This document shows, one piece after another, positions 23,745-40,842 of a stretch of DNA of 64,000 bases. The stretch is from positions 1 to 64,000 of the forward strand of contig JAEULK010000076.1 of NCBI GenBank assembly GCA_016793775.1, read 5' to 3'. Every line of letters starts with the position of its first letter. The first letter of the stretch is position 1. Below the pieces are notes generated by a model that worked only from the letters and a program-made list of their open reading frames with translations, was not told where the DNA came from and searched no databases. The position numbers and the translations under genes were made by a program. Source of the DNA: Sphingopyxis sp. GTDB taxonomy: Bacteria; Pseudomonadota; Alphaproteobacteria; Sphingomonadales; Sphingomonadaceae.

Positions 23745-25628
23745 TTATGAGAACTCGGGATTCCGTCGGGCTTGCAACGCAGCTGCAATTTCTGCCAGCG
23801 CCTCGGGATTTTCGATCGTTGGCGACATAACGACATCTTTTCCGTTGGCTAGCCCGCGAATAGCTGCCCGGAGAATCTTCCCCGATCGGGTCTTGGGCAG
23901 CGCACTGACGAGGATCGCCTGCTTCAAGGCGGCGACCGGTCCCAATTCCTGGCGGACAAGAGATATGATTTCTCCCGGCAGTTCCTCGCCCGCGATTACA
24001 CCGCTCTTTACGACCGCAAGGGCGAGGGGGATCATGCCCTTGAGGCGGTCGTCGGCGCCGATAACGGCGCATTCGGCGATTGCGGGATGCTTCGCGATGA
24101 TCTGTTCGATCTGTCCCGTCGACAGGCGATGGCCGGCGACGTTGATGATGTCGTCGGTGCGGCCCATGATATGGACGAAACCGTCGGTATCGATGTGGCC
24201 GGCATCGCCGCTTTCATAGTCGCCAGCAAAGCTTTGGAACGCGCGGAGGTAGCCATCGGCATTGTTCCATAGTGACGAATAACAACCGGGAGGGAGTGGA
24301 GTCGCGACGACGATGTGGCCGCTCGCACCGGCCTCGACTGGCTCGCCGTCGTCCCCCAACACCGCGAAGCGGAATCCGGGAACCGGAAAACCTGCACTGC
24401 CCGCGCGCCGCCGCGTGTCGCCGAGCCCGAGACAGGTCGCGACCGCAGGCCAGCCCAGTTCGGTCTGCCACCAATGGTCGATCACCGGAATGTCCAGTTG
24501 CCGCTCCGCCCAGATCAACGTGTCGGGATCGGCACGCTCGCCCGCGAGATACATCGCGCGCAGGCGCCCGGTGCCGATGTCCTGAATGAATCGACCCCCG
24601 GGATCCTCCTTGCGGATCGCGCGGATCGCGGTCGGCGCGGTGAAGAAGATATCGACCTGATGCTTGGTTATCGTGCGCCAGAACGTTCCGGCGTCGGGGG
24701 TGCCGACCGGTTTGCCTTCGAAAAGCAATGTGGTGCATCCCGCGATCAGCGGACCGTAGACGATATAGCTGTGCCCCACGACCCACCCGACGTCGGATGC
24801 GGCCCAGAAGGTGTCGCCGGCTTGGGTTCCATAAATATGACGCATGCTCCACGCGAGCGCCACCGCATGCCCGCCGTTCTGGCGCACCACGCCCTTTGGC
24901 GTTCCCGTGGTGCCCGAGGTGTAGAGGATATAGAGCGGGTCGGTCGCGGCGATCGCGACGCAGGCCGCCGGGCGGGCAGCATCATGGCTTTCGGCCCAGT
25001 CATGGTCGCGGCCGTGGATCAACTCGGCGACACATTGCGGGCGCTGCAACAGCACGACATGCTCGATCCGGTGCGACGCCAATGCGATCGCCTGGTCGAC
25101 CAGCGGCTTGTAGGGAAGAATCCGGCCGCCCTCGATCCCGCACGAGGCGGTCAGCAGGGCGCGCGGTGCTGCATCGTCGATACGCTTGGCGAGTTCGGGG
25201 GCAGCGAAGCCGCCGAATACGACCGAATGGATCGCCCCGATCCGCGCGCAGGCGAGCATCGCGAAGAGCGTCTCGGGGATCATCGGCATATAGATGATGA
25301 CGCGGTCGCCTTTGCCGATGCCGAGGTTCGTCAGCATTCCGGCGGTTCGCGACACGCGCTTCAGAAGTGTGTCGAAATCGATCTGCTGGCGTGTGCCCGC
25401 AACCGGACTTTCGTAGATGACTGCTATGTCTTTCCCGCGCCCTGCAGCGACATGGCGGTCGACCGCGTTGTAGCAGGTGTTGAGCGTGCCGTCGGCGAAC
25501 CAGCCTCGGCCCTCGGTCCATCCGGTGTGCGGGAGCTCGATCCAGTCGACGGCCCCGGCCGCCTCAAGCCAGAAGGCGTCGGGATCCGAGAGGCTGCTGG
25601 TATAGGCGTCTTCGTAAGTTGCGCTCAT
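23745..25628 (-). CDS. prpE: PrpE-like propionyl-CoA (short-chain acyl-CoA) synthetase
   Basis: 627-aa acyl-CoA synthetase whose length and motifs match PrpE: SVVFGGFAAPELAKRIDDA, YILYTSGTTGTPKGVVR, WWQTELGWP, the hinge Asp segment GRTDDIINVAGHRLSTGQIE and the catalytic Lys in PKTRSGKILR. It would activate propionate or a related short acid. ATG 25628 is 4 bp after the cupin stop, so it ends the TonB-cupin-ligase operon. Its TAA stop is only 1 bp from the IS3 terminus, and the last few residues (NPEFS) may come from the junction. Native propionate genes are not nearby, suggesting a pathway-specific role. Confidence 0.88.
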   Translation of the reverse strand: MSATYEDAYTSSLSDPDAFWLEAAGAVDWIELPHTGWTEGRGWFADGTLNTCYNAVDRHVAAGRGKDIAVIYESPVAGTRQQIDFDTLLKRVSRTAGMLTNLGIGKGDRVIIYMPMIPETLFAMLACARIGAIHSVVFGGFAAPELAKRIDDAAPRALLTASCGIEGGRILPYKPLVDQAIALASHRIEHVVLLQRPQCVAELIHGRDHDWAESHDAARPAACVAIAATDPLYILYTSGTTGTPKGVVRQNGGHAVALAWSMRHIYGTQAGDTFWAASDVGWVVGHSYIVYGPLIAGCTTLLFEGKPVGTPDAGTFWRTITKHQVDIFFTAPTAIRAIRKEDPGGRFIQDIGTGRLRAMYLAGERADPDTLIWAERQLDIPVIDHWWQTELGWPAVATCLGLGDTRRRAGSAGFPVPGFRFAVLGDDGEPVEAGASGHIVVATPLPPGCYSSLWNNADGYLRAFQSFAGDYESGDAGHIDTDGFVHIMGRTDDIINVAGHRLSTGQIEQIIAKHPAIAECAVIGADDRLKGMIPLALAVVKSGVIAGEELPGEIISLVRQELGPVAALKQAILVSALPKTRSGKILRAAIRGLANGKDVVMSPTIENPEALAEIAAALQARRNPEFS

Positions 25629-25632
25629 CGTC

Positions 25633-26025
25633 TCATACCGCCGCGGAAAGATCCTCCAGCAACTTGTGGTCGAGGATCGACGATATTTCGCCTGCTTCAT
25701 CCAGAAAGGCGATCGGACCATAGTTGGTGAAGAGCAGTTCGGTATATTCGGGAAATGCGGTGTGATCGTGCACGACGCCGAGCGGCTCATAACCATAGGT
25801 GCCGGGGCCCGCTTCGCCCATACGGTACGTCATCCGGCCCTTCGTCACATAATATTCTCCGGCGCCGAGGTGACGGTGCGGTCCGAAGAAGCTGCCCGGC
25901 TGGGCGCGGAACAGCACGGTCCAGCGGCCGGTCTCGGCGCTCGAATAGAGCAATGCAAATTCGATCCCGTCGGCGATCGTTGCCCATTTCATGGCGGCGG
26001 GCGGCGTCAGATGTTCGTCCATCAT
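25633..26025 (-). CDS. Cupin-domain protein (2,4'-dihydroxyacetophenone-dioxygenase-like)
   Basis: About 130 aa, single cupin fold. SFFGPHRHLGAGEYYVTKGR gives the first metal motif (H-x-H ... E) and VVHDHTAFPEYTELLF the second. Single-cupin dioxygenases of this type use Fe(II) to cleave C-C bonds next to carbonyls, as in acetylacetone or dihydroxyacetophenone cleavage; others are only binding proteins. Start is at ATG 26025 or 26022. It lies between the TonB receptor (23-bp gap) and the PrpE-like ligase, so cleavage of the imported compound to a short acid is an attractive but unproven role. Confidence 0.75.
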   Translation of the reverse strand: MMDEHLTPPAAMKWATIADGIEFALLYSSAETGRWTVLFRAQPGSFFGPHRHLGAGEYYVTKGRMTYRMGEAGPGTYGYEPLGVVHDHTAFPEYTELLFTNYGPIAFLDEAGEISSILDHKLLEDLSAAV

Positions 26026-26048
26026 GTCGAAATACTCGTGTAAGGGGT

Positions 26049-28268
26049 TCAGAAACGGACGGAAAATTCGGCGCCATAGGTCGCGCGCTCGCCATAATAG
26101 CGGGGCACGAAACCGAAGCCGCTCGTGTCGGTGGCGTCGACGATATAGGCCTTGCCGGTCACGTTCTTCGCCCAGGCGGCGAGTTCCCATCCCTGGTCGG
26201 GATCGGCGAAGGCGACGCGCAGATTGAGCAGGCCATAACCTTCGCCCGAACTGATCAGTTCGTCCTGCGCATTGTTGTAATATTTCTTGCCGGTGTAGTT
26301 GTATTCGGCGCGCCAGCGCGTTTCGAACCTGCCGACCGGCACCGTGACTTGTGCAAAGGTCGACAGGGTGAATTTCGGTGCGCCGGGCATGCGGTTGCCC
26401 GAAAAGTCGCGCGGATCGCCGGTCACGGGATCGATCGCACCCGACAGGTAATTCTTGTACTTGGCGTCGAGGATGCCGAGGTTGAGCCCCATGTCGAGCC
26501 AGTCCGTCGGTACGGCTGTCGCCTCGACCTCAATCCCCTTGATCGTGGCGTCGGCCGCATTGTCGAGCCCCAGCGTCGGCACCGCGCTCCCCGCCTGCCG
26601 GTTCACTGACAGCACCTGCAGATCGGTATAGTCGTAGTAGAAGGCCGAGAGGTTCAGTCGCAGGCGGCGATCGAACAAGGTGCTCTTCAGCCCGATTTCA
26701 TAGGAGGTCAGATATTCGGGATCGACCTGCGTCCGCTCGGCGACGCTGGTGATGATGCCGATATTGAAGCCGCCCGCCTTGAACCCGCGGTCGACGCTGG
26801 CATAGGCCAGGATGTCGTCGGTGACGTCAAAGTCGGCCGCGACCCGCCAGGTGAAAGATTTGAAGGTGTCGCGCAGCGCCGCGAAGGGCACCAGCGGCAC
26901 CGGTGCGCCGTCGGGAATGTCGGCGTCGAAGAACCCGGGCACCAGGTCGGCGCGGTGCGTCGCGCGGACCTTGTCGATCGTGTAACGGCCGCCAACGGTC
27001 AGCCGCAGCGTTGGTATCACCGCGTAAGTCGCCTGTCCGAAGATCGCATAGGCGCGGTTCTTGCGCGTCGCGCGCGTGATCAGCGGCAGCGCGCCCTGCG
27101 CGAAGGTCAGTTCGCCGAGCAGGTCGGCATTGCTGTCGGCGCCGAGATCCTCCTGAAAATAGTAAAGTCCGGCGATCGCGTTGAGCGGGCCGTTGTCATA
27201 GGCCAGCTGAAACTCCTGCGTCAGCTGTTCGGCGTCGGTCAGGAAGGTGATCTCGTCGACGCGCTTTGTACCGCCATCGACATCGACGCGGTTGTCGACG
27301 TCGCTCTTGTCATAGCCGCTGATCGACTTGAAGGTGAAGTCGCCGAAGCTTTGCGCGATGTTGAGATTGACGAAGACATTGTCGCTGTAATTGCGCGACT
27401 GGCCGTTGAAGTTGAGCAAATTGGGATTGTCGGGGAAGGGGTCGGAATAGCCGAACAGGTCGGCTCCGCCCAACGTCCCGACGGGTTTGTTTTCCAGATA
27501 GTCGCTGCGGTCGCGGCCGCCGCCTACCGACAGACGGACGTCGGTGTCATCCGACGGCTGCCAGCGCAGGATCGCGCGAGCGGCGGCTTCGTCGACATTG
27601 ATCGCGCGGTCGCCGGTAAACAGGTTGACCTTCTCGCCGTCACGGCGGCGGACGATCCCCGCGACGCGCAGCGAGAGCGTATCGGCCAGCGGCAGGCTCA
27701 GGGCGGCTTCGCCTTCGACCAGGTCGAAGCGGCCATAGCCGAAGCGGGCATTGCCTTCGAATTCGCCATCGGGAAGCTTCGAGAAAAACTGGATCGCGCC
27801 GCCGGTCGTGTTCTTGCCGAACAAGGTGCCTTGCGGGCCGCGCACCACCTCGATCCGCTCAAGGTCGAACAGCGAGAAGATCTGGCTGCCGGTCGAGGCG
27901 ACGACGACATCGTCGCGATAGATGCTGATCGGCCCGATCGACGATGCGTTGAAATCATTGTTGCCGACGCCGCGGATGAAGATGTTGGGAACGCCGCCGA
28001 ACGTCTTGATCTCAAGGTTCGGAACCTGGTCTCCGATCGACAGGCTGTTCGTGAAGCCCGCCTCCCGGATCGCGGTATCATCGAACGCGCTGACCGAGAT
28101 TGGAACATCCTGAAGATTCTGCGCGCGCTTCTGGGCGGTAACGACGATTTCGCCGACGCCGCTCTGCGTGGCGCTATCCGTGCTTTCCTGAGCAAAAGCC
28201 GGGGTTGCGATGGCGAGCGCCTGAACAGCGGCGGCGGCGTAAAGCGACGTACGAAACTGGTTTGTCAT
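26049..28268 (-). CDS. TonB-dependent outer-membrane receptor
   Basis: 739 aa. Signal peptide ends at ATPAFAQE. TonB box EIVVTAQKRAQN, then the plug with NIFIRGVGNNDFNASSIGP and GPQGTLFGKNTTGGAIQF, a 22-strand barrel, and a terminal Phe (FSVRF). The ATG at 28268 has GGGAGGGG before it. It imports an unknown ligand into the periplasm. It heads the cupin-PrpE operon and is divergent from the AraC regulator at 28545, which is likely to control both sides. The plug motif type is common among sphingomonad receptors for aromatic and other hydrophobic compounds. Confidence 0.92.
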   Translation of the reverse strand: MTNQFRTSLYAAAAVQALAIATPAFAQESTDSATQSGVGEIVVTAQKRAQNLQDVPISVSAFDDTAIREAGFTNSLSIGDQVPNLEIKTFGGVPNIFIRGVGNNDFNASSIGPISIYRDDVVVASTGSQIFSLFDLERIEVVRGPQGTLFGKNTTGGAIQFFSKLPDGEFEGNARFGYGRFDLVEGEAALSLPLADTLSLRVAGIVRRRDGEKVNLFTGDRAINVDEAAARAILRWQPSDDTDVRLSVGGGRDRSDYLENKPVGTLGGADLFGYSDPFPDNPNLLNFNGQSRNYSDNVFVNLNIAQSFGDFTFKSISGYDKSDVDNRVDVDGGTKRVDEITFLTDAEQLTQEFQLAYDNGPLNAIAGLYYFQEDLGADSNADLLGELTFAQGALPLITRATRKNRAYAIFGQATYAVIPTLRLTVGGRYTIDKVRATHRADLVPGFFDADIPDGAPVPLVPFAALRDTFKSFTWRVAADFDVTDDILAYASVDRGFKAGGFNIGIITSVAERTQVDPEYLTSYEIGLKSTLFDRRLRLNLSAFYYDYTDLQVLSVNRQAGSAVPTLGLDNAADATIKGIEVEATAVPTDWLDMGLNLGILDAKYKNYLSGAIDPVTGDPRDFSGNRMPGAPKFTLSTFAQVTVPVGRFETRWRAEYNYTGKKYYNNAQDELISSGEGYGLLNLRVAFADPDQGWELAAWAKNVTGKAYIVDATDTSGFGFVPRYYGERATYGAEFSVRF

Positions 28269-28544
28269 ATGATCCCCTCCCAGGATGGCGGCGCCCTCTG
28301 TCGGGGCGTCCTGTTCGTTCCCGTTTCTAGGCGAGGGCGGTCGCCAGGCGCATGTGCCTGAGCGGTGCAAAATTTGGCTGAGCGGGAACTGCGTGCGGCG
28401 GAAAGCGCACGGAAGGCCGTGTTTACGTGGCGGCAATTGTCTCATCGCGTAGCCATATTTGTGTCAGCGTGAACCCGGCGGACCCCTCGATTGCATCGCC
28501 ACGCCAAAAGGCATAGCTTGCCGCGTTGGAGAGAGGGCGGGCCA

Positions 28545-29552
28545 ATGCTTCTGACCGAGGAACAATGGACATCGGCGCATTTGCCGCCGCCGCGGCAATT
28601 GCCGGGATTCCAGGAAGTGTTCGACCGGACGCATTTCCATTGGGGGCTGAGCAAGGGCAACGGCGAGCGTTACGATGCGCAGGTGCGGCGGCGCGCGATC
28701 GACGACTTCGTCTTCACCGATATCGTGTGCGATCCGGTCACCGGCTATCGCACGATGGACGATGTGAAGCGCGGGACCGAGGATTATTTCTGCCTGCTCC
28801 ATTTCGAGGAGGGGAATTGCCTGCTGCGGCAAGGGCGCAATGAATCGGTGGTGCGGCGCGACACGATCGCGGTGTGGGACAGCACGCGTCCCGCGATGTT
28901 CCAGAACAGCGAGCAGTTGCACCAGCTGTCGATCATGATCCCGCATCATATGGCGAAAACGATCGTGCCGGGAATCGAGGATATGTGCGGGCTGACCGTC
29001 GACGGCAGCGCGGGGCTGGGAGCGATCCTGCTGTCGCATCTGCGTCAAATCCACCGCACGGTCGAAACGGTGGATCCGCGCGACCGGACGGCCGTGCTTC
29101 GCGCAACCGTCGAGCTGGTTGCGGCGGCCTTTCGCCCTGACGTCGAGCAGCTTGGCGGCACCAATTTCCGGCGTGCGTTGCTCGGCCGGGTGCAGGACCA
29201 TATCGTTGCGCATCTGGGCGACCCCGGATTGTCGGCCGCCAGCATCGCCGCCGCCTTTCGTTTCAGCCCGCGCTATCTCCACCGACTGTTCGAGGAGTTC
29301 GGGGTCACCGTCGGAACCTGGATCCGCGAACGCCGTCTGCTCGCGGCCCGTAGCGACCTGTCGAGCCGGTCGATGGCCTCCTATTCGATCACCGAGATCG
29401 CGATGCGACGCGGCTTCGCCGATGCCTCGCATTTCAGCCACGCATTTCGCGATGCTTTCGGGCTCTCGCCGAGAGCGTTTCGCCGCGCGGCGGCCGAATG
29501 TCCCGATGGGATGTCGCCGGTTCCCTCCCGCCCAAATAAGCCGCCGTTCTGA
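28545..29552 (+). CDS. AraC/XylS-family transcriptional activator
   Basis: 335 aa. N-terminal ~170 residues form an AraC-binding-like domain (YFCLLHFEEGNCLLRQGR, VWDSTRPAMFQNSEQLHQLS) seen in regulators of aromatic catabolism. The C-terminal two-HTH domain runs AASIAAAFRFSPRYLHRLF and ITEIAMRRGFADASHFSHAF. ATG 28545 is preceded by GGAGAGAGGG. The 276-bp gap to the divergent TonB gene should contain its sites, but I could not identify convincing direct repeats by eye. It is 57 bp before the SDR that opens the E1-lipoyl operon. Confidence 0.9.
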   Translation: MLLTEEQWTSAHLPPPRQLPGFQEVFDRTHFHWGLSKGNGERYDAQVRRRAIDDFVFTDIVCDPVTGYRTMDDVKRGTEDYFCLLHFEEGNCLLRQGRNESVVRRDTIAVWDSTRPAMFQNSEQLHQLSIMIPHHMAKTIVPGIEDMCGLTVDGSAGLGAILLSHLRQIHRTVETVDPRDRTAVLRATVELVAAAFRPDVEQLGGTNFRRALLGRVQDHIVAHLGDPGLSAASIAAAFRFSPRYLHRLFEEFGVTVGTWIRERRLLAARSDLSSRSMASYSITEIAMRRGFADASHFSHAFRDAFGLSPRAFRRAAAECPDGMSPVPSRPNKPPF

Positions 29553-29609: not shown

Positions 29610-30383
29610 ATGGGCGACAGGCTCAGCAACAAGGTCGCGCTGGTTACAGGGGCGGCGCAGGGAATAGGCGCAGCTATTGCACAGGCGATGGCGGCCGAGG
29701 GGGCCCGGGTCATTGCGGCCGACCGCAATTTGGCGGGGTGCCAGGCGCTGGCGGCCGAAAGCGGCATTGCGGCGCTGGCGCTCGATGTGACGAACGAAAG
29801 CGACTGGGCCGCGGCGGCCGACCATATCGCATCGACCTTTGGTAGCCTTTCGATCCTGGTCAACAACGCGGGCGTCGAACTGGTCAAGCCGATGACCGAG
29901 CATAGTCTGGCCGACTGGCGCGGGCTGATGGCCGTCAATGTCGATGGGCTGTTCCTCGGTTGCCGGACGATGCAGCCGCTGCTTGCGGCGAGTGGCGCGG
30001 CGAGCGTCGTCAATATCTCGTCGATCGCCGGGCTTGTCGGCTATCCCGACCAGCTCGCCTATAACACGTCGAAAGGCGCGGTGCGCCATATGACCAAGAG
30101 CCTCGCGATCGAATGGGCATCGCATGCGCTGACGATCCGCTGCAATTCGATCCATCCCGGCTGCATTCGCACCCCGATGCTCGAAATGGCGGTCGAGGGT
30201 TGGGTGCGCGAAGGGTCGATCCCGGCTGAAGACCCGTGGGCCGCGGTCGCTTCGCTGTGCCCGTTGAATCTCGTCGGCAGCCCTCAGGATATTGGGATGG
30301 GGGCGGTTTACCTCGCCGGCGACGAAGCGCGTTTCGTGACCGGGATCGAGCTGGTCATCGACGGCGGATGGGTCGCGCGATGA
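29610..30383 (+). CDS. SDR family oxidoreductase
   Basis: 257-aa classical SDR with TGAAQGIG, NNAG, the Ser in NISSIAG and YNTSKG. Start codon follows GAGAAGGA. It overlaps the E1-alpha gene (ATGA at 30380-30383), so the two are made together. Likely step: oxidation of a secondary alcohol to the ketone or diketone that the E1 component then cleaves, as butanediol dehydrogenase does ahead of acetoin dehydrogenase. That comparison is inference. Confidence 0.88.
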   Translation: MGDRLSNKVALVTGAAQGIGAAIAQAMAAEGARVIAADRNLAGCQALAAESGIAALALDVTNESDWAAAADHIASTFGSLSILVNNAGVELVKPMTEHSLADWRGLMAVNVDGLFLGCRTMQPLLAASGAASVVNISSIAGLVGYPDQLAYNTSKGAVRHMTKSLAIEWASHALTIRCNSIHPGCIRTPMLEMAVEGWVREGSIPAEDPWAAVASLCPLNLVGSPQDIGMGAVYLAGDEARFVTGIELVIDGGWVAR

Positions 30384-31369
30384 ACGGCGCGAGCAACGCC
30401 AGCGACCGGCTGTGGATGTATGCCACGATGGTCAAGAGCCGCCATTTCGAGGCGCTGATCAAGCCCGCCTATTTCGAAGGCAAAAGCCCGGTGTTCAATA
30501 TGGCGAAGGGGCCTTTGCCGGGAGAGATGCATCTGTCCGACGGGCAGGAACCCTGCGCCGTTGGCGTCTGTGCGCATCTTCGGCCCGGCGATACGATCAC
30601 GGCGACGCACCGCCCGCACCATGTCGCCATCGCCAAAGGGGTCGATCTGGACGCAATGGCCGCGGAGATCTTTGGCAAGGCAAGCGGGCTGGCGGGCGGA
30701 CGCGGCGGTCATATGCATTTGTTCGACGCGCGGGTGAATTTCGCCTGTTCGGGCATCATCGCGCAGGGTTTGGGGCCGGCGGTCGGCGCGGCGCTGGCGA
30801 GCAAGCTGCGCGGTGACGATACCGTCGCGGTCGCCTTTCTCGGCGAGGGCGCTGCGAACCAGGGGGCCTTTCACGAGGCGCTCAATCTCGCCTCGGTGTG
30901 GAAGGTGCCGGCGGTTTTCGTGATCGAGGACAATGCCTATGGCATCTCGGTCTCCAAGCGCGACTGCACGGCGGTCGAGCGCAACGCCGATCGCGCGGCG
31001 GCCTATTCGATGCCCGGCCATTTCGTCGCCGGCAATGACGCCGACGCGGTCCACGCCATTGCCGGCGAGGCGATCGCGCGCGCTCGGCGCGGGGAAGGGC
31101 CATCGCTGATCGAGATCGAAACCTGCCGGCTTGAGGGGCATTTCATGGGCGACGCGGAGGGTTATCGACCCGCAGGCGAGGTCGAACGGTTGAAGGCGCG
31201 CGATCCCATTCCGGCCTATCGCGCGCGCCTGCTCGCCGACGGTTTCGAGGCGATCGACCTCGACCGCGCCGAGGCCGAAGCCCGGGCGGCCGTCGATGCC
31301 GCCTTTGCCTTCGCACGCGCCGCGGCTTATCCCGATCCGGAAGAGGCTTTTGCCCATGTCTTCGCCTGA
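30380..31369 (+). CDS. Thiamine-diphosphate dehydrogenase E1 component, alpha subunit (acetoin/2-oxoacid type)
   Basis: 329 aa. The ThDP-binding motif reads GEGAANQGAFHEALNLASVW with VFVIEDNAYGIS ending the GDG...N region. RGGHMHLFD and GIIAQGLGPAVGAALA are typical of AcoA/PdhA. The protein is short like AcoA. It pairs with the beta subunit, whose gene overlaps it by 14 bp. It would decarboxylate or cleave a 2-oxo substrate and pass the acyl or hydroxyalkyl group to a lipoyl arm. No E2 acyltransferase or E3 gene follows. Confidence 0.88.
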   Translation: MNGASNASDRLWMYATMVKSRHFEALIKPAYFEGKSPVFNMAKGPLPGEMHLSDGQEPCAVGVCAHLRPGDTITATHRPHHVAIAKGVDLDAMAAEIFGKASGLAGGRGGHMHLFDARVNFACSGIIAQGLGPAVGAALASKLRGDDTVAVAFLGEGAANQGAFHEALNLASVWKVPAVFVIEDNAYGISVSKRDCTAVERNADRAAAYSMPGHFVAGNDADAVHAIAGEAIARARRGEGPSLIEIETCRLEGHFMGDAEGYRPAGEVERLKARDPIPAYRARLLADGFEAIDLDRAEAEARAAVDAAFAFARAAAYPDPEEAFAHVFA

Positions 31370-32399
31370 TACTGCAACGGCCGTTCGGCCGGCTCGCCGC
31401 CTGACCATCGCCCGCGCGATCGCCGAAGCGATCGGGCAGGAAATGGAGCGGGATTCCGATGTCCTTGTCATGGGCGAGGATATCGCGAAGCTCGGCGGCG
31501 TTTTCGGCACGACAACCGGGCTGCTCGACCGCTTCGGCCCCGAACGTGTCCGCGACACGCCGATTTCCGAGACCGCCTTCATCGGCGCCGCGGTGGGTCT
31601 CGCGGCTTCGGGAATGCGCCCCGTGGTCGAGCTGATGTTCGTCGATTTCTTCGGCGTGTGCATGGACGCGATTTACAATCTCGCGGCCAAGCAGAGCTAT
31701 TTTTCGGGCGGGCAGGTGACGTGTCCGATGGTGCTGATGACCAGCGTCGGCGGCGGCTATGGCGATGCGGGTCAGCATAGTCAGGCGCTCTACGCGACTT
31801 TCGGCCATCTGCCGGGGCTGAAGGTTGTCATTCCCTCGAACGCGCACGATGCGAAGGGTCTGATGCTGGCGGCCATCCGCGATCCCAACCCGGTGATCTT
31901 CATGTATCACAAGGCGCTGCAGGGCATGGGCTGGCTTGGTACTGTACAGCGGTCGATCACCGATGCGCCGGAGGGCGATTATGTCGTCCCGCTCGGCAAA
32001 GCGAAATGCGTGCGCGAGGGCGAAGATGTCACGGTCGTAGGCCTGGGCCTTTCGGTTCATCAGGCGCTCGATGCCGCCGGGCGGCTCGCCGAAGAGGGTG
32101 TTTCGGCCGAGGTCATCGATCTGATCAGCATCGCGCCGGTCGACCGCGAAACGGTAAGGGCATCGGTGCGCCGGACCGGGCGGCTGCTCGTCGTCGACGA
32201 TGATTATCTGAGCTACGGCGTCGGCGCCGAGATCATCGCCAGCGTCTGCGAAGCGGGCATCCCGCTTCTCGTACCGCCGCAGCGCATTGCCTTTCCCGAC
32301 ATTCCCGTACCCTTCACCCCGGTGATGGAGCATTTCGTGCTGCCCAATGCCGACAAGGTCGCGGCCGCTGTACGTCAGATGATGGAGGTTCCGAACTGA
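31356..32399 (+). CDS. Thiamine-diphosphate dehydrogenase E1 component, beta subunit
   Basis: 347 aa. RLTIARAIAEAIGQEMERD, VMGEDIAKLGGVFGTT and RVRDTPISETAFIGAAVGLA are hallmarks of E1-beta (transketolase pyrimidine domain), followed by the C-terminal domain with EDVTVVGLGLSVHQAL and EVIDLISIAPVDRETV. Internal ATG 31356 within the end of the alpha gene was chosen because homology starts after it. It forms an alpha2-beta2 E1 with the upstream product and overlaps the lipoyl gene by one base. Confidence 0.9.
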   Translation: MSSPDTATAVRPARRLTIARAIAEAIGQEMERDSDVLVMGEDIAKLGGVFGTTTGLLDRFGPERVRDTPISETAFIGAAVGLAASGMRPVVELMFVDFFGVCMDAIYNLAAKQSYFSGGQVTCPMVLMTSVGGGYGDAGQHSQALYATFGHLPGLKVVIPSNAHDAKGLMLAAIRDPNPVIFMYHKALQGMGWLGTVQRSITDAPEGDYVVPLGKAKCVREGEDVTVVGLGLSVHQALDAAGRLAEEGVSAEVIDLISIAPVDRETVRASVRRTGRLLVVDDDYLSYGVGAEIIASVCEAGIPLLVPPQRIAFPDIPVPFTPVMEHFVLPNADKVAAAVRQMMEVPN

Positions 32400-32629
32400 T
32401 GACCGATGTGACGATTCCATCCGGCCTGTGGGGCGCCGACGATGAAGCCGCGATTTCGGCATGGCTCTACGCGGACGGCGACCCGGTCGCCGAAGGCGCG
32501 ATCATTGCCGAGATCATGGTCGAGAAATCTAGTTATGAGCTCATCGCGCCCGCTGCGGGAACGCTGCAAATCTTGATCGCGGCCGAGGTGCCGGTACGTG
32601 CGGGGGCGGTGGCAGCGCAGATCGTCTGA
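32399..32629 (+). CDS. Free-standing lipoyl-domain protein
   Basis: 76 aa, essentially one biotinyl/lipoyl hairpin domain. The attachment loop is EIMVEKSSYEL, with Lys 43 as the likely lipoylated residue (usual motif is D-K-A). The remainder (APAAGTLQILIAAEVPVRAG, then AAQIV) completes the flattened beta-barrel. There is no peripheral-subunit-binding or acyltransferase domain, so it is a carrier rather than an E2. It lies directly between E1-beta (1-bp overlap) and the lipoate-ligase homologue (no gap). Confidence 0.88.
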   Translation: MTDVTIPSGLWGADDEAAISAWLYADGDPVAEGAIIAEIMVEKSSYELIAPAAGTLQILIAAEVPVRAGAVAAQIV

Positions 32630-33325
32630 ATGATCGTGCCATCGACGATCGTGTCGCGCCTGGCGATGGCGATAGCAGATGATGTTCCGGTCGAGTGCGG
32701 CGACGGACGGACAGCGATCGACGCGGATGACGTGCGCCTCGACGCCCTGCTCGGGGGTGACGCCAGCGCGGGCGGGTGGCGGCTATGGACAAACCGCCCT
32801 TGTCTCGTCACGACGCGGCGTTTTGCGGCTATGCCCCGCTTCGCCGATGCGGCGCTGGAGAGCGCCTGCCGAGGGTGGCCGGTATTTGTGCGACCGAGCG
32901 GGGGAACGACGGTGGCGCACCGGCCCGGCACACTGAACGCCAGCCATTTTCAATCGTGGGGCGGGGACGGCGACGACGCAATCCAGCGGTTCCGGATATT
33001 CTGCGAGCATCTGGCAGCGTCCATATGTTCCGTAGGCGTCCGGGCATGCTTGGGTCGTGTCCATCGCAGCCACTGCGACGGCCGCTTTAATCTGGTATCG
33101 GCGGGACGGAAATTGGCCGGTACTGCGTCGCTCGTACGACGCAAAGGCGACTATGTCGGTTTGCTATGCCATGCGTCAATTTGGGCCGAAGGCGACGTCG
33201 CGGCGGACGTGAGGGCCATTGAACGTTTCGAGGCAGCCTTGGAACTTGATACGTCATACTCCGAGAATGTGCATGCAACGTTGGAACAGCATTTTATGTC
33301 GGCTTTCGCAGACACAGGCACGTAA
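32630..33325 (+). CDS. Lipoate-protein ligase A family protein
   Basis: 231-aa biotin/lipoate ligase fold. WRLWTNRPCLVTTRRFA, VRPSGGTTVAHRPGTLNASH (the RRxxGGGxVxHxxGxxN motif, with S-G-G-T) and HCDGRFNLVSAGRKLAGTA, whose Lys matches the catalytic Lys of LplA. It lacks the LplA accessory C-terminal domain, like LipM/LplJ-type transferases. The ATG follows the lipoyl gene's stop with no gap. Most likely it lipoylates the neighbouring 76-aa protein specifically. Confidence 0.82.
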   Translation: MIVPSTIVSRLAMAIADDVPVECGDGRTAIDADDVRLDALLGGDASAGGWRLWTNRPCLVTTRRFAAMPRFADAALESACRGWPVFVRPSGGTTVAHRPGTLNASHFQSWGGDGDDAIQRFRIFCEHLAASICSVGVRACLGRVHRSHCDGRFNLVSAGRKLAGTASLVRRKGDYVGLLCHASIWAEGDVAADVRAIERFEAALELDTSYSENVHATLEQHFMSAFADTGT

Positions 33326-33463: not shown

Positions 33464-33694
33464 TGACCTGACCCCGATCTTTCATCCATCTGCAACCAGA
33501 GGCCGAGGGGTGTTGTCGCGCATAGGCGCAGGCGAAGCAACGGGCGGGGTTGACCCCGCCCGTTGCTTTTCGAGTTCGGCGGCGAACGCCGCCGGGGTGG
33601 CGTAGCCGAGCGAGGAGTGCGGCCGCTCGCTGTTGTAATCGTCGACCGCCCGTTCTCCCTCCTCCAGCGCCCGAAGCCGCCTGGCGTCCGACAC
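33464..33694 (-). pseudogene. IS3-family orfB C-terminal remnant with right terminus
   Basis: Reading leftward: VDDYNSERPHSSLGYATPAA, then FAAELEKQRAG and an extra tail ending at 33482. The N-S-x-R-P-H-x-S-L-G-Y signature is the end of the IS3-family DDE transposase OrfB; everything before it is lost. TGACCTGACCCC at 33464 matches the terminus at 23743 in 10 of its first 12 bases and is in inverted orientation, so it is probably the other end of a related element. The gap 33326-33463 shows nothing else. Confidence 0.78.
33535..33568. terminator. Strong hairpin, possible bidirectional terminator
   Basis: A perfect 15-bp stem AAGCAACGGGCGGGG / CCCCGCCCGTTGCTT with loop TTGA is followed by TT on the plus strand. 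It lies inside the tail of the IS3 orfB remnant, about 210 bp after the lipoate-ligase stop, and would stop transcripts leaving the island. Confidence 0.55.
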
Positions 33695-35653: not shown

Positions 35654-35700
35654 TTGACTCTATCGTAGCGTCTTGCTCTCTAAATCGGATAAATATCCGA
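35654..35700 (+). promoter_or_regulatory. Promoter and operator dyad of the TonB-aminotransferase operon
   Basis: TTGACT (35654-35659) and TCTAAA (35679-35684) form a weak sigma-70 pair with a 19-bp spacer. TCGGAT-AAAT-ATCCGA (35685-35700) follows at once, covering the probable start point 18 bp before the ATG. A further TATCCG half-site lies near 35620 toward the TetR gene. Fits autoregulation plus repression by the divergent TetR. Confidence 0.5.
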
Positions 35701-35717
35701 ACATGGAGAAGGGGAAG

Positions 35718-37955
35718 ATGATGAAACGCGGTTTTGCGATGATGTCGGTCTCGTTGCTGGCGCTGATTCCGGCGGTTGCGGCGGCGCAGGAGTCCGCAGG
35801 TTCTTCTTCTTCGGCCGTCGCGGAGCAGGACGGGATCGGCGAGATCGTCGTGACCGCCCAGCGGCGTGAGCAGAATATCCAGGATGTCCCGATCAGCATC
35901 ACCGCGATCAGCGGCGAGGCGCTGACCGAAGTCGGCATCCGCGATCCGCGCGATCTGTCGCTGCTCGTCCCCGGCCTTTCGTCGCAGGCGGGCACCTCGG
36001 CGACGACGACCTCGCTGTTCCTGCGCGGCGTCGGGATTGGCGACTTCAACTCGAACACCACCGGCGCGGTCGGCGTCTATGTCGACGACGTCTTTCTCGG
36101 AGCGAACGCCGGCAAGCTGTTCAACGTCTTCGACAGCGAGGGCATCGAAGTGCTGAAGGGGCCGCAGGGTACGCTCTATGGCCGCAACACCACCGCCGGT
36201 GCGATCCGCTTTTCGTCGCGCAAGCCGACCGACGAATTCAGCGCCAATGCCGCCGTCTCCTATGGACGCTACAATGAAGTGCAGGTCGAGGGCGGGGTCG
36301 GCGGGCCGATCGCCGGCGATGTGCTGAAGGCGCGCGTCGCCGGCACCTATCTGCGCCGCGACGGCTGGCTGCTCAACCGCGTTACCGGGAACAAGCTCAA
36401 CAATCTCGACATGTGGGCGGGCCGCGCGATCGTCGATTTCACGCCCAATTCCGACATATTGATCCGCGCGATCGTCCATGGCGGGCAGAACCGGGGCGGC
36501 GCGCGTCAGTTCCAGCATCGCGGGCAGGGCATCGATTTTGCCGGCAATCCCAATTTCGCGAACGGCGTGCCGCTCGACGCCTTGGGCTATGCCGATACCG
36601 ACGGCGACCTCAATGCGGGCGATTATGACATCGAGGGGCAGGAGCGCGTCAATGTCTTCGGCGGCTCGCTGACCGCGAGCATCGATATGGGCGGGGTCAT
36701 GCTGACATCGATCAGCGCCTATGAACAGGTGCGCCGGAGCACGGTCGAGGATACTGACGCGAGCCCGAACAATGTGCTGACCGCGACCTATATCGACCGG
36801 CCAAAGCAATATAGCCAGGAACTGCGGCTGCAGTCGAAGGACGGCGGCACGGTGAACTGGATCGTCGGGGGTTATTATTTCCACGACAAGCTCGTCACCG
36901 AGAGCGCGTTCGACATCCTCCGCGTGTTCCGCGATCCGAACGATCTTCTCGGCACGTTCGATCCGGCCAATTCCATCGGCAATTTCGCCTATCCCTATAC
37001 GCAGACGACCGAGAGCTGGGCCGCCTTTGCGCAGGCCGACGTCAAGCTGTCGGACAAGCTGACCCTGACCGGGGGGCTGCGCTATTCGGTCGACAGCATC
37101 GATTTCGATTTTCACAGCTTCTTCGACGACGTGATCGTCGTGCCGGTGCTCGACTTCACCGGTTCGAAGACCTTCAAGGATCTGTCGTGGCGTGCCGCGC
37201 TGTCGTTCCAGGCGACCGACGATCTGCTCTTCTACGCCTCGTCGTCGAAGGGCTATAACAGCGGCGGTTTTGCGGGTGGGTCGTCGAGCGATTCGGCGCA
37301 GTTGCAGCCGTTCCGGTCGGAAAAGCTCTACGCCTATGAGGCGGGTTTCAAAAGCGATCTTCTGGGCCGGAAACTGCGCTTCAATGCCGCAGCCTTCTAT
37401 TATGATTATCGCGATTTGCAGGTGTTCGTTTTCGATACGTCGGGCGTGCTGCCGGTCCAGCGCAAGCTCAACGCGGGCAATGCCGAGCTATATGGTCTCG
37501 AAGTCGAATTGCAGGCGCAGCCGTCGCGCAATTTCAACGCCTTCGTCAACGCCAGCCTCCTCCACGCGCGCTACAAGGATTTCACCGCGCTCGCGGCGGA
37601 CGATTATTCGGGCAACAAGCTGGTCAACGCGCCCGAAGTGGCGATCTCGGCCGGTTTCTCGCTGACCCAGCCGCTGCCCGGCGACAGCGCGCTGCGCCTT
37701 CGCGTCGACGGCAGCCTTCAGTCGGAGGTGTTTCTGACGCCGGACAATGTGCAGGCCAATCGCGTGAAGCCTTATGGCACCGCCAACGTCCGGCTTTCGT
37801 GGCTCTCGCCCGACGAGAATCTCGAACTCGCATTGTGGGGCAAAAACATCACCGGCACGCGCTTCGTCACCTATGTTTCGCCGGTCGTGACCATGGACCA
37901 GATCAACTACAATGATCCGGCGACCTATGGTGTCCAGGCTGTCCTGAAATTCTGA
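35718..37955 (+). CDS. TonB-dependent outer-membrane receptor
   Basis: 745 aa. Signal peptide up to AVAAAQES, TonB box EIVVTAQRREQNIQDVPISI, plug with TSLFLRGVGIGDFNSNTTGA and GPQGTLYGRNTTAGAIRF, barrel, and C-terminal VLKF. It is closely similar in plug layout to the receptor at 26049. ATG 35718 follows GGAGAAGGGGAAG; a start at 35703 is possible. First gene of an operon with an aminotransferase, sugar kinase and aldolase, so the ligand may be an amino-sugar or a similar hydroxylated compound. Confidence 0.92.
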   Translation: MMKRGFAMMSVSLLALIPAVAAAQESAGSSSSAVAEQDGIGEIVVTAQRREQNIQDVPISITAISGEALTEVGIRDPRDLSLLVPGLSSQAGTSATTTSLFLRGVGIGDFNSNTTGAVGVYVDDVFLGANAGKLFNVFDSEGIEVLKGPQGTLYGRNTTAGAIRFSSRKPTDEFSANAAVSYGRYNEVQVEGGVGGPIAGDVLKARVAGTYLRRDGWLLNRVTGNKLNNLDMWAGRAIVDFTPNSDILIRAIVHGGQNRGGARQFQHRGQGIDFAGNPNFANGVPLDALGYADTDGDLNAGDYDIEGQERVNVFGGSLTASIDMGGVMLTSISAYEQVRRSTVEDTDASPNNVLTATYIDRPKQYSQELRLQSKDGGTVNWIVGGYYFHDKLVTESAFDILRVFRDPNDLLGTFDPANSIGNFAYPYTQTTESWAAFAQADVKLSDKLTLTGGLRYSVDSIDFDFHSFFDDVIVVPVLDFTGSKTFKDLSWRAALSFQATDDLLFYASSSKGYNSGGFAGGSSSDSAQLQPFRSEKLYAYEAGFKSDLLGRKLRFNAAAFYYDYRDLQVFVFDTSGVLPVQRKLNAGNAELYGLEVELQAQPSRNFNAFVNASLLHARYKDFTALAADDYSGNKLVNAPEVAISAGFSLTQPLPGDSALRLRVDGSLQSEVFLTPDNVQANRVKPYGTANVRLSWLSPDENLELALWGKNITGTRFVTYVSPVVTMDQINYNDPATYGVQAVLKF

Positions 37956-37967
37956 TCAACAAGCGAG

Positions 37968-39248
37968 ATGGAAATGAGCCGAGTACAGGATGCGGCGCTG
38001 CGTGCGCGCGCGATGGAAGTGATCCCGAACGGGATGTATGGGCATGAATCGGTGCGGATGCTCCCCGACAGCTTCCCGCAATTCTTCAGCAAGGCCGAGG
38101 GCGCCTATATCTGGGACGCCGACGGCAATCGCTATCTCGACTATATGTGCGCCTATGGGCCCAGTCTGCTCGGCTATCGCGACGCGCGCATCGATGCGGC
38201 GGCACAGGCGCAAGCGGCGCTCGGCGATACGCTGACCGGACCGTCGCCGCTGATGGTCGAACTCGCCGAAACCCTGGTGGAGATGGTCGACCACGCCGAC
38301 TGGGCGATGTTCTGCAAGAACGGTACCGACGCGACGACGATGGCGATGAGCAGCGCGCGCGCGCAGACGGGCAAACGCATCGTGCTGGTCGCGAAGGGGG
38401 CATATCATGGCGCTGCGCCTTGGTGCACGCCGATCCCGTCAGGGACCGTCGCCGAAGACCGGGCGCACCTCCGCACCTATGCCTATAACGACATCGCGAG
38501 CCTGGAGGCAGCGGTCGCCGACGCGGGCGACGATCTCGCCGCAATCTTCGCATCGCCTTTCCGCCACGACGCCTTTATCGATCAGGAAGCGCCCGATCCT
38601 GCCTATGCCCGGCGCGCGCGCGAACTTTGCGATCAGACGGGTGCGATGCTGATTGTCGACGAGGTTCGCGCGGGTTTCCGCCTCGCGCGTGGCAGCAGCT
38701 GGACCGAACTCGGCGTTCAGCCCGACCTCAGCGCCTGGGGCAAATGCTTCGCCAATGGCCATCCCATCTCGGCGTTGCTCGGATCCGATAGCTGCCGTGA
38801 AGGCGCCGGTTCGATCTATGCCACCGGATCCTTCTGGTTGTCGGCGGTGCCGATGGCGGCGGCGATCGAGACGTTGCGGATCATACGCGAGAGCGATTAT
38901 CTCGAACATATGGTTCGCCTTGGCAATAGCCTGCGGTCGGGGCTCGACGCCGCTGCGACAAAGCATGGCTTCGTGCTGCGCCAGACCGGCCCTGTCCAGA
39001 TGCCGCAGATCATGTTCGCCGACGATCCCGATTTCCGCGTCGGCTATGGCTGGGCGGAAGAGATGCTCGCACGCGGCGTCTATGTGCATCCCTGGCATAA
39101 TATGTTCCTGTGCGCTGCGATGACCGATGCCGACATCGACCTGACCGTCACGGCAGCCGGCGACGCCTTTGCCGCGCTTGCAAAGCGAAGCGGCGAGCTT
39201 GAGCCGCACCCGGTCCTCGTTGCGCTTGCGGCGGCCGCGGACGGTTGA
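37968..39248 (+). CDS. Class III PLP aminotransferase (glutamate-1-semialdehyde-aminomutase-like)
   Basis: 426 aa. GAYIWDADGNRYLDYMCAYG, FCKNGTDATTMAMSSARAQT, LIVDEVRAGFRLA (PLP ring Asp) and WGKCFANGHPISALLG (Schiff-base Lys) place it with the GSAM-like branch of class III aminotransferases. Outside haem synthesis these enzymes transaminate omega- or beta-amino groups. It has a 12-bp gap to the TonB receptor, so it is probably the first intracellular step, removing an amine from the imported compound. ATG at 37968 or 37974. Confidence 0.88.
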   Translation: MEMSRVQDAALRARAMEVIPNGMYGHESVRMLPDSFPQFFSKAEGAYIWDADGNRYLDYMCAYGPSLLGYRDARIDAAAQAQAALGDTLTGPSPLMVELAETLVEMVDHADWAMFCKNGTDATTMAMSSARAQTGKRIVLVAKGAYHGAAPWCTPIPSGTVAEDRAHLRTYAYNDIASLEAAVADAGDDLAAIFASPFRHDAFIDQEAPDPAYARRARELCDQTGAMLIVDEVRAGFRLARGSSWTELGVQPDLSAWGKCFANGHPISALLGSDSCREGAGSIYATGSFWLSAVPMAAAIETLRIIRESDYLEHMVRLGNSLRSGLDAAATKHGFVLRQTGPVQMPQIMFADDPDFRVGYGWAEEMLARGVYVHPWHNMFLCAAMTDADIDLTVTAAGDAFAALAKRSGELEPHPVLVALAAAADG

Positions 39249-39250
39249 CC

Positions 39251-40195
39251 ATGCAACTCGACCTTCTCGCCGTCGGCCTCACGACGATCGACGTCACGGT
39301 CTATCCGGTGGCGTCATTGCCCGAGGGCGAGACGGGGCAAATCGTCGAGAAGATCGTTCTGTCGCCCGCCGGCACCGCGGGCGGGACCGCCTTTGTCGCG
39401 CAGAAGCTGGGCCTCCGCGCGGGAATCGCTTCGGCGGTCGGTGACGATCCGCAGGGGCAGTTGATCCGGTCGATGTTCGACGCGGCCGGGGTCGATACCA
39501 GCCTGCTTTGCGTCGATCCGGCTTGGCCGACATCGACCACGGTCCTGCCGATCCGCCCGAACGGTGACCGTCCGAACTGGCATATGATGGGGGCTAGTAT
39601 CTTCGCGCCGGTCACCGATGCGGTATTCGCCGCGCTGGCCCGCACCGCCGCCGTCCACTGGGGCGGTGTGGGCTTTCCGGGCGCCGCAGGGAAGGGCGCC
39701 GACCTGCTGCGTGAGGCGCGCGCGCGCGGCGTGTTCACATCGTGCGACCTGATCGCGCCTTCGGACGCGGCGCAGGCCGATCTCGATGTCCTGTTGCCGC
39801 ATGTCGACCTGTTCATGCCAAGCCTTGCGGAGGTTCGCGCGCTGGCCGGGACCGACGATCCGGTCGAGGGCGCCGGCCGCTTCATGGTGCGCGGCGCGGG
39901 TGGCTGCCTGATCAAGATGGGCGGCGACGGCGCGCTGCTCATCCTGCCCGACCGGCAGATCCAGGTTCCTGCGCACCGGATCGATCCTGTCGATACCACC
40001 AGCTGCGGAGACAGCCTGTGTGCGGGATATATCGCGGGTCGCACGCGCGGCCTTGATCCCGTCGATGCGCTGCGTTTCGGGGTCGCCACCGCGGCGCAGG
40101 TCGCGCTCGGCGTCGGCACGCTGGGCAAGCTCGAAAGCTATGATACGACCTTGGCGTTCATGGGCGATACGTCGGCAAGGGAGGAGGATCGATGA
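39251..40195 (+). CDS. PfkB/ribokinase-family sugar kinase
   Basis: 314 aa from ATG 39251 (a TTG at 39245 would overlap the previous stop). The second PfkB signature is present as PVDTTSCGDSLCAGYIAG, with the catalytic Asp in C-G-D instead of the usual A-G-D, and LLAVGLTTIDVTVYPV at the front. It phosphorylates a hydroxyl on a sugar-like intermediate with ATP. Its position between the aminotransferase and the aldolase suggests that it primes the compound for aldol cleavage. Its stop overlaps the aldolase ATG. Confidence 0.88.
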   Translation: MQLDLLAVGLTTIDVTVYPVASLPEGETGQIVEKIVLSPAGTAGGTAFVAQKLGLRAGIASAVGDDPQGQLIRSMFDAAGVDTSLLCVDPAWPTSTTVLPIRPNGDRPNWHMMGASIFAPVTDAVFAALARTAAVHWGGVGFPGAAGKGADLLREARARGVFTSCDLIAPSDAAQADLDVLLPHVDLFMPSLAEVRALAGTDDPVEGAGRFMVRGAGGCLIKMGGDGALLILPDRQIQVPAHRIDPVDTTSCGDSLCAGYIAGRTRGLDPVDALRFGVATAAQVALGVGTLGKLESYDTTLAFMGDTSAREEDR

Positions 40196-40842
40196 CCGAA
40201 GACGAAGCCCGGCAGCAGCTTGTCGATGCGATGCGCTCGCTCGACGCGCGCGGTCTGAATCGTGGGACATCGGGCAATCTTTCGGTGCGTTTCGCATCGG
40301 GCATGTTGGTCACCCCTTCGGGCGTGACGCCCGACCGCCTGACCGCCGACCTGATGGTCTATGTCGATGGCGACGGAAGCGTGGCTGCGGGATCCGCACG
40401 CCCGTCGAGCGAATGGCAAATGCATATGGGCCTGTATCGGCGCCGGCCCGACGCGAATGCGATTGTGCATTGCCACGCACGATACTCGACGATCCTGGCT
40501 TGTGCGCACCGCGAGATTCCGCCGCTGCATTACATGGTGGCGGTCAGTGGCGGAGCCAGCGTCCCCATCGCACCCTATGCGACATTCGGCAGCGAGGAAC
40601 TCGCCGACGGCGTCGTGCAGACGCTCGACGGGCGTTCCGCGTGCCTGATGGCCAATCATGGGCTAATTGCACTCGGCCCCAAACTTCCGGTCGCGATGGC
40701 GATTGCCGAGGAAATAGAGGAACAGGCGGCCGTCTATTGCGGTACGCTTGCGATAGGCGGTCCGAAGTTGCTTAACGCAATCGAGATGGAAAGGATCATC
40801 GCGGCCTTCACGCAGTATGGCCAGCGCGACACGAAGGGGTGA
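40192..40842 (+). CDS. Class II (Zn) aldolase/adducin-domain protein
   Basis: 216 aa, the fuculose-/rhamnulose-phosphate aldolase size. GNLSVR, SSEWQMHMGLY (catalytic Glu region), IVHCHARYST (two Zn His) and MANHGLIALG (third His) are in place. It would cleave the kinase product, typically to dihydroxyacetone phosphate plus an aldehyde. ATGA overlap with the kinase gene. Some family members are epimerases or decarboxylases, so the exact cleavage is unknown. The 140-bp gap after it (40843-40982) shows no gene and no clear terminator. Confidence 0.88.
   Translation: MTEDEARQQLVDAMRSLDARGLNRGTSGNLSVRFASGMLVTPSGVTPDRLTADLMVYVDGDGSVAAGSARPSSEWQMHMGLYRRRPDANAIVHCHARYSTILACAHREIPPLHYMVAVSGGASVPIAPYATFGSEELADGVVQTLDGRSACLMANHGLIALGPKLPVAMAIAEEIEEQAAVYCGTLAIGGPKLLNAIEMERIIAAFTQYGQRDTKG

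Follow-up and report, generated by a model that had tools for sequence, protein, structure and literature searches.

The window analysed here is a 64,000-nucleotide (nt) stretch of Sphingopyxis sp. DNA (contig JAEULK010000076.1). Its operon of interest encodes a short-chain dehydrogenase/reductase (SDR), the two halves (E1α and E1β) of a thiamine diphosphate (ThDP)-dependent dehydrogenase, a free lipoyl protein (Lip) and a lipoyl-attachment enzyme (Lpl). Sequence comparison suggests that the operon is best read as a branch without an acyltransferase (E2) gene in a family of untethered ThDP/lipoyl systems, whose E2 is split into one gene for Lip and one for the catalytic domain. The E1α, E1β, Lip and Lpl genes form one tight operon with no adjacent gene for E2 or lipoamide dehydrogenase (E3). 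SDR and E1α overlap by 4 nt (ATGA) in the window sequence, E1α and E1β by 14 nt and E1β and Lip by 1 nt, and Lip and Lpl abut with a 0-nt gap. An initial annotation had listed the last three junctions and had assigned the four genes to both E1 halves, a lipoyl-only protein and an LplA-fold protein; the junctions were confirmed directly in the sequence and the assignments by Pfam (Table 1). Its observation that neither E2 nor E3 stands beside the four genes also holds. No E2 was found by the criterion used for the E1 sets, a profile match of at least 100 bits that shares the strand of E1β and lies no more than 4.5 kb from it, and nothing in the window matched the lipoamide-dehydrogenase-like protein of the same genome at E ≤ 1e-20. 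The genome, with a completeness of 96%, contains three E2s with the PF00198 domain (frames of 425, 435 and 469 amino acids (aa)) and three PF02852 proteins, all on contigs other than that of the window.

The family was sampled by scanning genome contigs with an E1β alignment, keeping the best 80 of 490 relatives, and by similarity searches of anonymous genomes and of plasmids. Since the samples were picked by similarity to the window, the counts do not represent prevalence. A separate Lip gene is present in all 114 loci with a family E1β, a small E2 in 79 and an Lpl in 99 (duplicates included). The family is characterized by a free lipoyl protein of 70-90 aa right after E1β with the lipoyl lysine kept, and the window has this feature. 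The small E2 is a stand-alone catalytic domain of ~210-270 aa, encoded by its own gene separate from Lip. Seven small E2s scanned against Pfam matched PF00198 only, whereas a full-length control E2 also matched lipoyl and E3_binding domains. The family spans alpha- and gammaproteobacteria, Rhodococcus and haloarchaea. The split order can be found in annotated records of Rhodococcus opacus (with lipA), Halobaculum limi, Natrialba magadii, Roseibium aggregatum and Phaeobacter inhibens, and Haladaptatus salinisoli has an annotated version of it without E2. Among 121 sources, two loci (L115 and L142, both E2-bearing) have an E3 homologue and the other 119 have none, suggesting that supply of E3 from elsewhere is already the rule in the family. 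The initial annotation had proposed a minimal ThDP/lipoyl system, which an E2/E3 pair beside most homologous blocks was to refute. The absence of a local E2 stands, but the operon is better described as a split-E2 system that lacks the E2 gene: a nearby E2 does occur in most family sets, in the form of a stand-alone domain, but in 0 of 17 sets of the window type.

To follow the small E2, we used a tree of E1α plus E1β with 112 rows, or 110 after removal of the two outgroups (L039 and L165). Identical E1 pairs were left out before counting, L036 was not entered, and the tree excludes loci, such as L035 and L037, whose E1 genes are incomplete or absent in the sequence fetched. Among the 110 distinct E1 sets, 74 have a small E2 and 36 have none. 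The 36 sets form 14 maximal clades. Because the four sphingomonad clades among them are partly split by weakly supported nodes, ~10 separate events is a fair figure. Most deep rows in the tree are E2-bearing, as are the more distant archaeal and Rhodococcus loci outside it, and E2 was probably lost rather than gained.

We considered whether a small E2 is hidden near the E2-less genes, and rejected this possibility. The E2 profile, which recovered four full-length E2s at 166-226 bits, finds none in these loci apart from the second-set E2s of L073, L150 and L151, loci that each have two convergent E1-Lip sets and a single small E2. An AcoC-type α/β-hydrolase E2 nearby was rejected as well, as no E2-less locus has a match to the AcoC hydrolase part at E ≤ 1e-5. 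Thirty genomes that carry an E2-less set (16 + 14) were searched whole for PF00198; E2s lie elsewhere in all of them, at least two in each and only two in six genomes. Context suggests that these other E2s are of the pyruvate, oxoglutarate or branched-chain type. In 25 of the 30 genomes, every PF00198 match lies in an open frame of at least 353 aa, measured from stop to stop and hence an upper limit. Nine regions read out (L165, L170, L171, L172, L205, L206, L207, L209 and L210) contain full-length E2s, the one in L209 cut by the contig end. In L205 (6656-10068, minus strand; genome G242), the separate full-length E2 adjoins a fused E1α-E1β chain (732-aa frame), and the same is seen in G085 (L206). 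Five genomes remain. G119 has a split-E2 set as well (L031), and G306 and G312 have two E1-Lip sets and one small E2. G513 contains an orphan E2-like open reading frame (ORF) of 243 aa (L169), with no family E1 or Lip in the 17 kb fetched. G1661 has a PF00198 frame of 311 aa next to a separate lipoyl ORF, along with some fragments. In G1661, L208 (3444-4543) has a lipoyl ORF beside a small E2 catalytic ORF with no family E1 in the 11 kb fetched, and the E2 split may therefore have arisen more than once.

The E2-less arrangement is conserved. Counting the window, 17 sphingomonad sets of distinct sequence carry SDR-E1α-E1β-Lip and no E2, and chance assembly or misassembly was rejected on this ground. 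The SDR gene is immediately 5' of E1α in all 17, and a Dke1-like cupin gene is near all 17. In a gene-by-gene comparison of eight loci (the window, L020, L021, L022, L024, L028, L030 and L032), the cupin, a TonB receptor, an AraC regulator, SDR, E1α, E1β and Lpl are common to all eight, and a profile search found Lip in all eight too. L148 differs in layout, with Lpl ~3.5 kb away on the opposite strand. The cluster is also present in a genome of the same genus, G468 (L146), with an E1β identity of 96%. The nearest named relative of the window E1β among the best 80 is a Sphingopyxis record (92%).

The residue following the lipoyl lysine in Lip is associated with E2 status. It is Val, Ala or Ile in 74/74 sets with E2, and never Ser or Thr (0/74). 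In the sets without E2, it is Ser or Thr in 26/36, Ala in 9/36 and Val in 1/36. A count on 109 Lip rows (73 with E2 and 36 without) gives the same picture. A four-state Pagel model favours dependence of the two traits (likelihood ratio (LR) 33.2, 4 degrees of freedom, p 1.1e-6), with some rates at their bounds; the trait was spotted in the data before the test, and the model was run on this column alone. The LR is 17.7 (p 0.0014) for the 84 tips that remain after removal of the cupin loci, and 27.9 (p 1.3e-5) for the 93 tips left when the sphingomonad E2-less sets are taken out. In a mutual-information control of the Lip, E1α and E1β columns against E2 status, with relatedness uncorrected, this column ranks first (0.584; next 0.447). 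Sixteen further loci were fetched, of which four repeat earlier E1β rows and 12 are new, several being close kin of earlier rows. All 12 agree: Val or Ile in 7/7 with E2, and Ser or Thr in 5/5 without. Among six named plasmid loci, those with E2 have Val (5/5), but the E2-less Haladaptatus locus also has Val, contrary to the trend. In the two-set loci L073 and L150, the Lip linked to E2 has Val and the E2-less Lip has Thr. The idea that Ser/Thr excludes any E2 is weakened by the full-length E2 in L207, which has Thr after its lipoyl lysine. The residue beside the lipoyl lysine is a one-residue candidate marker of E2 dependence.

We tentatively favour a mechanism in which the acyl group leaves the E2-less system in trans, probably through a housekeeping E2 and with a housekeeping E3, and consider it nearly, though not quite, probable. 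E1 would cleave an SDR-oxidised substrate or a cupin product (an acyloin, diketone or 2-oxo compound), and the acyl group would be moved reductively onto the lipoyl-Lys43 of a diffusing Lip. The loaded Lip would then meet a housekeeping E2 core of the pyruvate or branched-chain type, which would pass the acyl group to coenzyme A (CoA), and the housekeeping E3 would re-oxidise the dihydrolipoyl arm of Lip. Because Lip is untethered, the loss of a private E2 would require no redesign of a complex, and the repeated E2-less clades fit the presence of a ready substitute. The Halomonas-related E2-less loci L103, L106 and L140 retain the lipoyl motif of their E2-bearing sisters, which also supports borrowing. 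In vitro, the catalytic domain of Escherichia coli E2o, a separate free lipoyl domain, E1 and E3 together produce NADH, indicating that tethering is not required (PMC5986005). The lipoyl domain without the E2o catalytic domain showed no overall activity (PMC5986005), suggesting that something must do the transfer.

Several points weigh against borrowing, which is itself inferred rather than observed. The untethered in vitro reaction was unsaturated up to 70 µM lipoyl domain (PMC5986005), so that efficiency in trans is a concern, and the tethered lipoyl domains of the housekeeping E2s would be competitors of Lip. The lipoyl domains of the three other E2s in the same genome have Val, Ala and Ala after the lysine. 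Were such an E2 merely to step in, one would not readily expect a shift to Ser/Thr, away from the motif that it normally handles. In addition, L164, the family row that branches off first in the rooted tree, has no E2, which makes the direction of change uncertain. The initial annotation had left a choice between release of the product in a different way and a borrowed housekeeping E2/E3 core. Borrowing is the best reading, and E2-independent release is kept as an alternative because of the Ser/Thr signature.

E2-independent release, which we regard as possible but doubtful, would have acyl-Lip hydrolysed to an acid that a PrpE-like ligase re-activates, or the acyl group transferred to a non-CoA acceptor, with Lip acting mainly as an electron and acyl relay. 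It is consistent with the confinement of Ser/Thr to sets without E2 and with the lack of PF00198-type or AcoC-type E2s in their loci, the second-set E2s aside, and an AMP-forming ligase is found within 9 kb in 14 of the 21 E2-less sets with a cupin. However, acyl-CoA ligases follow the cupin and not E2 absence: they occur in 18/26 cupin sets, 6/84 other sets and 1/15 E2-less sets without cupin, where loci cut by contig or region ends were scored as without. The ligase gene therefore lends no support to acid release, and a ligase as a general companion of E2 loss was rejected. Consistent with this, eight large ORFs from seven other E2-less loci (two in L109 and one each in L089, L162, L091, L079, L075 and L080) include no ligase (0/8). 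They are an amino-acid permease, a pyridoxal phosphate-dependent decarboxylase, a peptidase, an ORF with no match, a phosphoesterase, a trypsin/PDZ protease, a Rieske protein and an aldehyde dehydrogenase. Re-activation of an acid product by PrpE, proposed in the initial annotation, is thus doubtful, although the window synthetase does score best against the NCBIfam propionate--CoA ligase (PrpE) model (685 bits, under the 955 cut-off). Furthermore, no hydrolase or other acyltransferase is among the clusters common to the eight compared loci, the L207 E2 indicates that Ser/Thr is compatible with an E2, and Ala or Val is kept in 10/36 E2-less sets, as is Val in Haladaptatus. A lipoyl-dependent C-C lyase that needs no E2 is unlikely. 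Its acyl group would be released or passed on outside the E2 families, and Ser/Thr would mark a new partner or self-discharge. If true, such a lyase would add to the known uses of protein-bound lipoate.

It is improbable that a dedicated E2 is encoded elsewhere in the genome, unlinked to the operon. The orphan ORF in G513 and the short frame and fragments in G1661 are consistent with such an E2, as is the sharing of one small E2 by two E1-Lip sets in L150 and L151 (G306 and G312). On the other hand, the long frames in 25/30 genomes, the nine full-length regions and the six genomes with only two E2s argue against it. So do the three long frames in the Sphingopyxis genome, in which the completeness of 96% leaves room for a gap in the list. 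It is very improbable that the cluster is a decaying remnant, left non-functional as a unit after a deletion of E2. An IS3 transposase fragment does lie ~160 bp past Lpl, but the E2-less order is kept in the 17 sphingomonad sets and in other branches. The cluster in G468 has no IS3-like ORF in the adjoining rough gene call, and the lipoyl lysine and the Cys and Lys of Lpl are invariant.

The proposal of the initial annotation that Lip is a free lipoyl carrier and has an attachment enzyme to itself is supported. The lipoyl lysine, residue 43 of Lip, is invariant in 109/109 non-identical Lip homologues, in an alignment whose own numbering leaves out the initiator Met, and the NCBIfam matches of Lip are E2 models and one E1β model that carries a lipoyl domain. 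Lpl has an LplA-fold catalytic domain with a GRKxxGTA lysine. Both this Lys161 (GRKLAGTA) and an upstream Cys149, a feature absent from the initial annotation, are invariant (99/99 each). The predicted fold is a single LplA/LipB-type domain (predicted local distance difference test score 96), with 2p0l and 2p5i as the nearest structures. The accessory C-terminal domain of two-domain LplA is not present in this 231-aa single-domain model; the E. coli LplA chains, of 330-337 aa, match it partially. In LipL and LipM, a conserved Cys is catalytic. A weak match to 2p5i (E 0.019) aligns Cys149 with a Cys of that structure. The protein had been called a lipoate ligase, and the LplA-type domain and its lysine agree with that. 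A ligase is not established, however, since Cys149 and the 2p0l and 2p5i matches also fit a LipL/LipM-like transferase; judged from sequence and predicted fold, Lpl may be either an ATP-dependent ligase or such a transferase. A first scan of the genome contigs with the Lpl protein as query found no relative.

The cupin supports the diketone-type setting proposed in the initial annotation. Its best solved relative is 3bal, the acetylacetone-cleaving Dke1 (3.9e-20), and a weaker one is 2,4'-dihydroxyacetophenone dioxygenase (0.0032). The H-x-H motif and the third His are aligned, corresponding to the three metal histidines of Dke1, His62, His64 and His104, whose roles are described in PMC4019311. 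Dke1 converts acetylacetone and O2 to acetate and methylglyoxal, and accepts many β-diketones (PMC4019311). The window cupin, a Cupin_7 member, is Dke1-like by sequence.

Table 1. Genes of the operon and its surroundings in the window
Feature	Position	Strand	Evidence and remarks
PrpE/acetate-CoA-ligase-like AMP-forming acyl-CoA synthetase, 683-aa ORF, true start probably later	23745-25796	-	Pfam AMP-binding 2.6e-72, ACAS_N
Dke1-like cupin (PF12973), ~131 aa by homologue comparison; ORF opens at 26190	25633-26028	-	Cupin_7 1.2e-36
TonB-dependent receptor, 798-aa ORF, true start probably later	26049-28445	-	Pfam TonB_dep_Rec_b-barrel 2.2e-42
AraC/FeaR-like regulator	28491-29552	+	Pfam HTH_18 1.9e-22, AraC_binding_2 1.5e-16
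SDR-family dehydrogenase	29610-30383	+	Pfam adh_short_C2 2.6e-57; first operon gene
E1α, ThDP dehydrogenase, 329 aa	30380-31369	+	Pfam E1_dh 1.9e-66
E1β, 347 aa	31356-32399	+	Pfam Transket_pyr 5e-42, Transketolase_C 2.1e-33
Lip, free 76-aa lipoyl protein	32399-32629	+	Pfam Biotin_lipoyl 1.3e-8; Lys43 codon 32525-32527, Ser44 32528-32530
Lpl, single-domain LplA/LipL/LipM-fold lipoyl-attachment enzyme, 231 aa	32630-33325	+	Pfam LplA-B_cat 1.6e-10; Cys149 33074-33076, Lys161 33110-33112
IS3-family transposase, C-terminal remnant	33482-33694	-	~160 bp downstream of Lpl

The AraC regulator is upstream of the operon on the same strand, and the TonB receptor, cupin and acyl-CoA synthetase genes are divergent from it. 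Further along the window, positions 35673-40842 contain a second TonB-receptor gene followed by same-strand genes for a class-III aminotransferase, a PfkB kinase and a class II aldolase, which looks like another catabolic operon. An FG-GAP/UnbV_ASPIC repeat protein is encoded at 40983-42473 on the minus strand.

Companion genes differ between E2-bearing and E2-less loci. A Zn-alcohol dehydrogenase is found in 28/79 E2-bearing loci versus 0/35 E2-less loci (in L081, at 8881-9963, it is between E1α and E1β), and a GMC oxidoreductase in 49/79 versus 0/35. The E2-bearing branch may act on other substrates. In the Rhodococcus opacus locus (L212, 7268-9093), lipA directly follows the split E2, and the profile finds no Lpl there.

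Among known systems, acetoin dehydrogenase (acoA-acoB-acoC) is close in sequence. The window E1β and E1α are 46% and 40% identical to those of a Caballeronia acetoin cluster (L039), and 39% and 33% identical to those of another E1 of the same genome (L165). In an E1β tree of 12 sequences, which included one annotated acetoin cluster, the E1β of that cluster is the nearest outgroup of the family. However, the acetoin E2 in L039 and L217 is one chain with lipoyl and α/β-hydrolase parts, whereas the window Lip is free and has no E2 beside it. In L039, an Lpl relative (7899-8663) directly follows the acoC gene, and dedicated lipoyl-attachment enzymes may therefore occur in acetoin systems too. The pyruvate, 2-oxoglutarate and branched-chain 2-oxoacid dehydrogenases share the E1 fold and, by homology, the lipoyl chemistry, and the best matches of the window E1β among solved structures are E1β chains of the pyruvate dehydrogenase (PDH) type. 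The textbook complexes are built around a large E2 core with tethered arms. The window encodes a ThDP-dependent E1, as judged by homology, but neither a three-domain E2 nor an E3. Unlike the E2 core of those complexes, with its tethered lipoyl and E3-binding domains, the small E2s of the relatives lack both and the window Lip is free.

Small free lipoyl carriers are also known in the glycine cleavage H protein and in LbpA of sHdr sulfur oxidation. The gene cluster of LbpA includes a dedicated single-domain LplA-like enzyme (PMC6067878), and this pairing in sulfur oxidisers is the closest precedent for Lip and Lpl (PMC6067878, PMC10332631). The window carrier differs in sitting with a ThDP E1 and in its NCBIfam matches. 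Sharing of a component in trans between two systems is exemplified by the actinobacterial OdhA, which draws lipoyl groups from the PDH E2 (PMC8146983), an example that speaks for borrowing. OdhA has no lipoyl domain and keeps a transferase domain, and the window system is the reverse.

We found no description of a natural split of the lipoyl and catalytic parts of E2, or of an E2-less E1/lipoyl operon, among the open-access titles and abstract openings listed, a scope that most subscription journals fall outside, and two annotation names in combination had no match there. Since E2 is repeatedly absent while the carrier stays, a small soluble system offers a way to ask what an E2 must do and whether lipoyl chemistry can run without one. 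With a diffusing carrier and, in most sampled members, a stand-alone E2 domain, the family is a natural version of the untethered pieces that were combined in vitro (PMC5986005).

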